Positions 24,435 to 26,187 of a stretch of 64,000 nt of DNA are shown here, in pieces (position 1 is the stretch's first letter; each line of letters starts with the position of its first letter). Location of the stretch: contig NZ_BBIT01000014.1 in NCBI RefSeq assembly GCF_000730625.1, positions 1-64,000 of the forward strand, read 5' to 3'. This DNA is from Pseudomonas oryzihabitans NBRC 102199 (lineage in GTDB: Bacteria > Pseudomonadota > Gammaproteobacteria > Pseudomonadales > Pseudomonadaceae). A program made the translations under genes and the position numbers. The notes beneath the pieces were generated by a model, which saw only the letters and a list, made by a program, of their open reading frames with translations, made no database searches and was not told where the DNA came from.

Positions 24435-25556
24435 CTACTGGCTGATGACGGCGTGGTTGGAAAAGCCGCTCTGGGTCAGGTTGATGGCATTGCCCGCGGT
24501 GCTCTGGGTGAGGTCGGCGGTGTGCTGGCTGCCGCTCTGGGCGACGGTGATGCTGGAGGCATTACCGGTCACGTAGGCCGTCACCCCAAGATTGTCGCCC
24601 TGCTGATCGACCTTCAGCTGGCCGTCGTTGCCCAGGTAATAGGCAGTGATGCCATTGGCGTCGCCGTTGGACGCCAGATCCAGCTGATTACCCTCGCCGG
24701 AGACGGTGGCAGAGGCGCCATTGCCGTTACCTGTCTGCGCCAGGGTCAGCTTGCTGCCCACGCCATAGACATTCACGTCCGCGCGGTTCAGATCGCCGCG
24801 CTGGGCGATATCGACGGTACTGGGTCGCGAGTAGCTGCTGGAGTGCCGGACCCGGGCATCGTTGCCGTTGCCCTCCTGCACCACCTTGGAATCCACCCGC
24901 TCGCCGCCTTGCTTGAGGCCGACATAGTTGTCATTGCCGCGCTGTTCGACGATGGTGGTCGAGTCCTCGCCGTTCTGACTCACCCAGGCCTCGTTGCGCA
25001 GGCCGAAGCTGGTCACCTGCAGGTCCTGGCGGTCACCGTGCTGAGCCAGGTCCAGCTTGCCGTTGAGTCCATCCTGGCGGACCGTCAGGGTGTTCTGGCC
25101 CGCGGCGTAGCTGTCCTGCTCGATGTCGATCCGGTGATAGCCGCCGTCCTGATGGACATAGGTGTCCTGCCGCAAGCCGCTCTGCCGCACCACCGTCGCG
25201 TTGCCGCTACCCGGTCCCTGATCGACCTGCACCCGGTCATAGCCGCCATCGCGCTGCTCGATATCCACCAGGCGCTGCGATCCCCAGACCTGATTGACCT
25301 CGATCGCGCTCCTGGCATTGGTCTGCACCACCCGCACGTGGTCGTCGGCATCGTTCTGCTGGGTGACCTGGGCATTGAGAAAGCTGCCGCTCTGCTGGAT
25401 ATCCGCCTGGTTGCGCGCCGACAAATCGCTGCCCTGGTTCAGGTTCACTACATTGAAGCCGCCGTTCTGCTGGACGTTGGCCGTATTGGACGCGGCCCAG
25501 GCGGCACCGGTGTTGGCTAGCAGTAACGCGACCATGAGGGAGCGGGAGGTTTGCAT
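24435..25556 (-). CDS. Secreted curlin-repeat (CsgA/CsgB-like) protein
   Basis: A 373-residue exported protein. The signal peptide MQTSRSLMVALLLANTGAAWA is followed by some 350 residues of degenerate curlin-type turns of about 22 residues, with paired beta strands carrying regularly spaced Gln, Asn and Gly: NVQQNGGFNVVNLNQG, ADIQQSGSFLNAQVTQQ, and the C-terminal NLTQSGFSNHAVISQ, which fits the X6-Q-X-G-X2-N-X-A-X3-Q curlin pattern. There is no cysteine. CsgA and CsgB are about 150 residues, so this is more than twice as long. Homologues of csgC/E/F/G are absent from the neighbourhood. ATG 25556 follows AAGGA. Likely a beta-solenoid, possibly an amyloid-forming surface or matrix protein. Confidence 0.8.
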   Translation of the reverse strand: MQTSRSLMVALLLANTGAAWAASNTANVQQNGGFNVVNLNQGSDLSARNQADIQQSGSFLNAQVTQQNDADDHVRVVQTNARSAIEVNQVWGSQRLVDIEQRDGGYDRVQVDQGPGSGNATVVRQSGLRQDTYVHQDGGYHRIDIEQDSYAAGQNTLTVRQDGLNGKLDLAQHGDRQDLQVTSFGLRNEAWVSQNGEDSTTIVEQRGNDNYVGLKQGGERVDSKVVQEGNGNDARVRHSSSYSRPSTVDIAQRGDLNRADVNVYGVGSKLTLAQTGNGNGASATVSGEGNQLDLASNGDANGITAYYLGNDGQLKVDQQGDNLGVTAYVTGNASSITVAQSGSQHTADLTQSTAGNAINLTQSGFSNHAVISQ

Positions 25557-25771
25557 GGGGACGGTCCTTGTGAGGGGCGGGAGAGCCCGGAGCGTGAGCG
25601 TTCGATTGGGGGGTAGGGGATAGGTGAGGCGCTGAGAAATAATCTGACTGATAAGGCTGAAGGCGCAATCGGTCGAAGGAGCGATGCTGATCCTTGCGTG
25701 AACAACCTTGCGTTGAGTGCGTAAGCCTGGAGGCTTCGAAAGAGAAACGTATGTCTTATGGAGCGCCAAGG

Positions 25772-25814: not shown

Positions 25815-26187
25815 TTAATCCACCGCCTTGACCGTCTCCTCGATGACCTTCTTGGCGTCGCCAAAGACCATCAGGGTATTGTCCAGGTAGAAGAGTTCGT
25901 TGCCGAGACCCACATAGCCGCTGGCCACGGATCTCTTGTTGACGATGTTCGTCTTGGCCTTGAAGGCTATCGAAGATAGGCATGCCGGCGATGGGCGACT
26001 TGGGGTCGTTGTTGGCAGCCGGGTTGACCACATCCTTGGCGCGGAGCACCAGCACCCCGTCGGCCTGGCCAAACTCGGAGGTGATGTCGTCCATCTCGAA
26101 CACCTGGCCGTAGGGCATCTCGGCTTCGGCCAGCAACACGTTTATATGGCCGGGCATGCGGCCGACCACCGGGTGTTCGAAACGATG
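25815..26187 (-). pseudogene. pntB: Truncated, frameshifted remnant of pntB (NAD(P) transhydrogenase subunit beta C-terminus)
   Basis: On the minus strand from about 26187 one frame encodes [20 protein letters not shown].., then [12 protein letters not shown], which is the NADP(H)-binding C-terminal domain III of PntB. Near 25970-25977 the homology shifts by one base to another frame reading [18 protein letters not shown], then [19 protein letters not shown] and KAVD before TAA at 25815. Only the last ~125 codons of a ~480-codon gene remain, without start codon or membrane domain, and no pntA is adjacent. It cannot make a functional transhydrogenase subunit. Most likely a duplicated tail or a deletion scar. 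Confidence 0.9.

Follow-up and report, generated by a model that had tools for sequence, protein, structure and literature searches.

A long stand-alone curlin of Pseudomonas oryzihabitans as a probable accessory curli subunit served by a distant Csg exporter

The DNA analysed here (the window, 64,000 nucleotides of Pseudomonas oryzihabitans NBRC 102199) encodes a curlin-repeat protein, called A below, that stands apart from the csg genes. As a complete curli export system is encoded elsewhere in the same genome, A is most likely an extra subunit for ordinary curli, and the reading of A as an accessory curli subunit using the distant Csg exporter under separate regulation is given a probability of about two in three. 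The observed basis is 15.5 curlin repeats, a single csg export set, conserved length and inward residues, and a second stand-alone curlin, B, whose layout resembles that of A and which shares its upstream element. The A protein would reach the periplasm by Sec, be kept unfolded there by CsgE and the product of a CsgH-like ORF, and leave through the pore of CsgG and CsgF, whose genes lie on another contig. Outside the cell it would fold as a long beta-solenoid, adding to, capping or branching fibres made mainly of operon CsgA, with its own promoter allowing the make-up of the fibre to change without any change to the exporter.

An earlier note, made from the sequence of the window, described a 373-residue ORF with about 16 curlin-like turns and a curlin-type motif at the C-terminus, and this description holds, the motif being present and the curlin HMM search that the note proposed giving a match (PF07012, E 1.6e-17, 63.6 bits against a cut-off of 20.7, in 7 stretches). 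The curlin repeat is the sole Pfam family over cut-off in A. The NCBIfam CsgA model NF007470 scores A at 104.4 bits (E 5.1e-30), under its cut-off of 160, which operon CsgA of this genome misses too at 77.4 bits; the NCBIfam CsgB model likewise matches A under cut-off (E 2.5e-22). The start codon is ATG with AAGGA ahead of it (Table 1). The 352 residues of mature A were parsed into six-residue strands of the form x-psi-x-psi-x-Q, the register being fitted to the window sequence alone, blind to the orthologs. This yielded 31 strands, or 15.5 repeats, and scored 99.6, where 300 shuffles averaged 43.8 and reached 56.4 at most, such that A consists of tandem 22-23-residue curlin units.

Table 1. 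Features of the A locus and of the other curlin and csg loci in the same genome; positions are those of the window unless a locus (L) is named.
Feature	Position	Strand	Basis or remark
Curlin-repeat gene A	24435..25556	-	373 aa + stop; PF07012 and translation
Apparent Sec signal peptide, residues 1-21	25494..25556	-	sequence by eye
Mature solenoid of 31 strands (15.5 curlin repeats)	24438..25493	-	parse, 300 shuffles, AlphaFold2 model
Leader with AAGGA, likely ribosome-binding site	25557..25571	-	conserved in alignment of 7 orthologs
Upstream element CYTTYGRNYGATKGC	25665..25679	-	first base 123 bp ahead of ATG; alignment, exact matches, matrix test
pntB 3' relic	25815..26175	-	PF02233 positions 340-455, two frames
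Downstream neighbour, 160 aa	23839..24321	-	no Pfam match over cut-off
LuxR-type regulator	L010:7782-8462		best NCBIfam match CsgD, E 6.8e-25, below cut-off
Operon csgB	L010		161 aa
Operon csgA	L010:4644-5561		306 aa
CsgH-like 110-aa ORF after csgA	L010:4312-4644	-	CsgH E 3.1e-5, below cut-off; no Pfam match
Stand-alone curlin B	L011:4050-5156		368 aa; PF07012 E 1.1e-28; contig C30, ~436 kb from csgG
Stand-alone curlin C	L012:3813-4865		350 aa; PF07012 E 7e-25; contig C30, ~117 kb from csgG

The repeats are imperfect, with Q ending 24 of the 31 strands; four of the seven strands without it lie within residues 258-329 and carry V or Y instead, and three of the arcs have 8 residues, most having 5. 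By the classes set out by Sleutel et al. (PMC10192328), A would be placed as a degenerate curlin ending on a half repeat. This degeneracy bears on whether A polymerises at all, since A could be a secreted or surface solenoid using the curlin fold as scaffold or adhesin, its degenerate charged repeats blocking end-to-end stacking. The seven strands lacking the terminal Q and the three longer arcs would suit such a protein, as would the identical length of seven full-length copies of A, which is unusual for a polymer with a free repeat number. The reading nevertheless seems unlikely given that the last repeats of A are canonical, that operon CsgA shows a comparable degree of imperfection when parsed likewise (Q ends 19 of its 26 strands) and that degenerate curlins with substitutions and longer arcs appear in sections 6 and 7 of PMC10192328 as one class of CsgA-like subunits. 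With cleavage sites set by eye, mature A begins with a strand at once, like operon CsgA, and neither has an N22-like leader.

Structure prediction, the second check proposed in the earlier note, gave a mixed outcome: the AlphaFold2 model of A, the best of five with pLDDT values of 45.6-85.9, is a beta-solenoid (pLDDT 85.9, pTM 0.84), with no solved curlin among the matches listed in the fold comparisons and no Foldseek match to the model at E 0.001 or better. By sequence, A matches 8c50 (E 2.7e-10), a solved curlin chain whose 363 residues come close to the 352 of mature A; the record, titled curlin associated repeat-containing protein, is presumably the R15.5 entry. R15.5, the CsgA of Pontibacter korlensis, has 15.5 repeats as does A, but it is described as centrosymmetric and regular (PMC10192328), whereas the repeats of A are degenerate, some of its arcs are longer and its gene lies outside the csg operon.

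The earlier note took about 150 residues as the norm for curlins, a norm that fails in this very genome. As operon CsgA has 306 residues and published curlins reach 62 repeats (PMC10192328), the length of A is not odd and is ordinary for non-enterobacterial curlins. Operon CsgA resembles A in its curlin repeats, length, apparent signal peptide (by eye) and strand at the mature N-terminus, but has 13 parsed repeats against 15.5, lies inside the csg operon and shares 32% identity with A over query residues 100-373. CsgA and CsgB of Escherichia coli have the curlin repeat kernel in common with A, with E. coli CsgA, unlike A, having 5 repeats and an N22 leader (PMC10192328) and the E. coli genes forming a csgBAC operon, unlike the stand-alone A (PMC3521004). 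Long curlins and many copies per genome are already in print (PMC10192328 and PMC3521004). The portion of Dueholm et al. (2012; PMC3521004) on extra csgA/B copies describes several dissimilar homologs per genome, as here, with up to 22 repeats; those copies are often in additional curli operons, whereas here they stand alone. Section 7 of Sleutel et al. (PMC10192328) offers a precedent for curlin-type repeats outside the csg operon in A0A249PTX6 of Sinorhizobium fredii, although sequences of that type have a Ser/Thr core and that of A is mostly A, V, I and L.

The earlier note had also stated that no export or nucleation partner adjoins A and had called for a genome search for csgG, csgE and csgF. 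Searches of the whole genome (5.03 Mb, 34 contigs) bore out the first point and answered the second: CsgG, CsgF and CsgE have one match each, all on contig C30, with A on contig C21 and no csg gene next to it. On C30 a single strand (stretch L010) carries a LuxR-type regulator, csgE, csgF, csgG, csgB, csgA and a 110-aa ORF weakly resembling CsgH, a protein described for Alphaproteobacteria (PMC3521004). Two further stand-alone curlins, B and C, lie on the same contig (Table 1). The complete genome G001 has A at 0.72 Mb, B at 1.29 Mb, csgG at 1.45 Mb and a C-type match at 1.84 Mb, such that A, neither inside nor beside the csg operon, is 0.73 Mb from csgG.

Two options had been offered in the earlier note, an unlinked Csg system and an independent amyloid, and the csgDEFG-B-A set on another contig favours the former, the latter being unsupported and not needed. 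Export without Csg was accordingly rejected as the main reading. Among 248 family genomes, curlin repeats (E 1e-4) were found in 95 and CsgG (E <1e-70) in 92, with both in 92, none having strong CsgG without curlin and three having curlin without strong CsgG. CsgG-domain matches of about E 1e-25, the best in a further 49 genomes, were by choice excluded from the count of curli CsgG. This co-occurrence, in 92 of 95 curlin-positive genomes, would fit secretion of A by CsgG with CsgE and CsgF. The three exceptions (G094, G230 and G246) lack a CsgG match even at E 1e-10. In print, roughly 2% of curlin-positive genomes are without CsgG (PMC10192328 and PMC3521004). These exceptions, together with the curlin-like sequences outside the csg operon in section 7 of Sleutel et al. 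(PMC10192328), would fit a Csg-independent amyloid that has a dedicated exporter, as yet unrecognised. That is very improbable for A, with no candidate exporter recognised at its locus, csgEFG present in the genome, and one of the exceptions, G230, looking like a secondary loss.

In G230, csgE has adjoining curlin-like ORFs (L119:6658-8290) and another such ORF lies elsewhere (L118:4506-5849); CsgG and CsgF have no match in this genome, and secondary loss of the exporter is likely. Separately, G005 of the genus carries four long curlin-like ORFs in tandem (L113:8528-13774) and others in L114, L115 and L116, all off contig C6, the site of its strong csgG.

In the genus set of 13 genomes, the present one included, A is full length (373 aa) in seven. 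Named relatives with a full-length copy are three P. oryzihabitans strains at 88-91% identity. In G011 truncation has left residues 151-373 only, G009 has a stop-containing remnant, and G002, G004, G005 and G010 have no A-type match. B-type matches occur in 10 of the 13, that of G010 covering query residues 11-282. Strong CsgG, together with CsgE and CsgF, is found in all 13, and A is therefore dispensable, being absent or broken in six genomes that all have csgG. Among 298 family genomes there was no full-length match to A outside the genus at E 1e-16 and two partial ones (G172 and G182). A mobile origin of A was considered and rejected: apart from these two partial matches the family matches at that threshold fall within the genus, of the four named near relatives two lie on complete chromosomes and two on draft contigs, and the six plasmid matches all have <32% identity, five being annotated as curlin and one having no annotated feature where the match falls.

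Such losses would be expected if A were a paralog in the course of being lost, formerly a curli subunit and now neutral or nearly so, and the unstable neighbouring DNA (a pnt deletion and variable inserts) and the faster divergence of A than of CsgA point the same way. The faster divergence holds for nonsynonymous and synonymous sites alike in the four genomes where both genes were measured, with dN of 0.05-0.09 for A against 0.02-0.03 for CsgA and dS of 0.25-0.42 against 0.10-0.17. Against this, A is under purifying selection, with dN/dS of 0.16-0.31 in all 21 pairs of the seven full-length copies, each keeping 373 aa down to 75% identity. The same measure is 0.21-0.42 for B (9 copies, 36 pairs) and 0.14-0.32 for CsgA (4 copies, 6 pairs); the truncated A of G011 and the remnant of G009 were omitted, CsgA was taken from four of the 13 genomes and C from two, and the B copy of G010 was left out of dN/dS and tree and, its start not having been found, of the upstream alignment. 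In six orthologs, identity to the window protein is 0.93 at inward positions and 0.76 at outward ones (p 2e-6), with the strand-ending column 98% identical. With inward positions more conserved and an upstream block retained amid diverged upstream DNA, the decay of A to neutrality is distinctly improbable.

A tree of 30 curlins places A and B each as one group (100/99), joined together (100/100) and apart from CsgA and C. Owing to a long-branch warning, which extends to the node where CsgA joins the A-B pair, only the sisterhood of A and B is used here. Along much of the solenoid the two proteins also run through similar arc lengths in the same order.

Across seven genomes, of which G000 and G001 are alike in this stretch, the DNA ahead of A shows little conservation outside the leader and a GATTGC block about 105-125 bases before the start. 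The 15-base pattern CYTTYGRNYGATKGC occurs exactly at two sites in the present genome, upstream of A and, on another contig, upstream of B. Across the genus, 12 of the 13 genomes contain exact matches, 28 in all against 17 for a reversed control pattern, with five upstream of A, 10 upstream of B and 13 elsewhere; in G000, G003, G008 and G012 the A and B sites are the sole two matches, and two of the seven A sites (G006 and G007) have no exact match. As the pattern was drawn from the A and B sites, its finding them is circular, and the fair parts of the test are its rarity elsewhere and a matrix built from the seven A sites alone and scored against random segments. By this matrix the 77 bases upstream of B are equalled or exceeded by 0.5% of 2998 random segments and 0.2% of 3000 of their own shuffles, and the 170 bases upstream of C by 0.8% of 998 random segments. 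The element is unconvincing at the csg operon, where 7.2% of 996 random segments equal or beat the stretch upstream of csgD, and those of csgB and csgA, scored with no null set, fall lower still. Given these scores, co-regulation of A with the exporter is undemonstrated. Within the window, CYTTYGRNYGATKGC at up to 2 mismatches occurs 7 times against 9.7 by chance, no excess.

Taken together, the alignment and matrix point to a control element that is probably common to A and B, perhaps to C, and not demonstrably to the csg operon, although common descent of A and B could alone have retained it. A possible CsgD box at the A/B element, judged by the E. coli consensus, is treated as a lead only. 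It may tentatively be suggested, as a rather unlikely extension, that the stand-alone A and B, and perhaps C, of 14.5-15.5 repeats, form a dispersed curlin regulon under a common element distinct from csg control, with one exporter and changeable fibres, within which A and B would serve as a specialised pair confined to the P. oryzihabitans clade, forming for instance caps, branch points or adhesive tips. As a separate observation, G010 carries four identical copies of one 15-mer, CCTTCGGGTGATGGC, on contigs C1, C15, C16 and C18, which is perhaps part of a repeated element.

On its upstream side A is flanked by the 3' relic of pntB, called a pntB relic in the earlier note and confirmed by the PF02233 match in two frames (Table 1), with no other PntB match in the genome. 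In P. oryzihabitans KNF2016, A follows an intact pnt operon (L013:4837-7743), with pntAA and a full pntB by Pfam and the small middle subunit by eye, and in the genome of the window this operon has been deleted except for the end of pntB, which is the relic. The downstream 160-aa neighbour is syntenic with A, matching in 10 of 13 genus genomes and split in two pieces in G011. An obligate partnership was not supported for it, the neighbour persisting in G009, which has an A remnant, and in G010, which has no A-type match. Beside the gene for this neighbour in G012, G009 and G010 lies a gene for a non-curlin protein of 255-259 aa that appears to be secreted (L025:366-1145, minus strand; L040:1917-2696, plus strand; L155:2164-2931, minus strand), its signal peptide being similar to the one of A and the G012 copy having no Pfam match; in G012 and G009 it sits between the 160-aa gene and A or its remnant.

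By title and abstract, the open-access literature searched held nothing evident, incidental matches aside, about P. oryzihabitans curli or about paired stand-alone curlins, nor was the A/B pair of this clade with its common upstream element found in print there. A belongs to a known family, and the element common to A and B is the fresh lead. The case also illustrates that an orphan curlin should not be taken for a curlin without an exporter until the whole genome has been searched. Research on curli centres on the csgBAC operon, and the presence of several off-operon curlins raises the questions of whether several subunits share a single CsgG pore and whether fibre composition is regulated. 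With one csg operon, a sister pair in A and B, natural losses of A and a candidate common control element, this clade offers a small test case for both.
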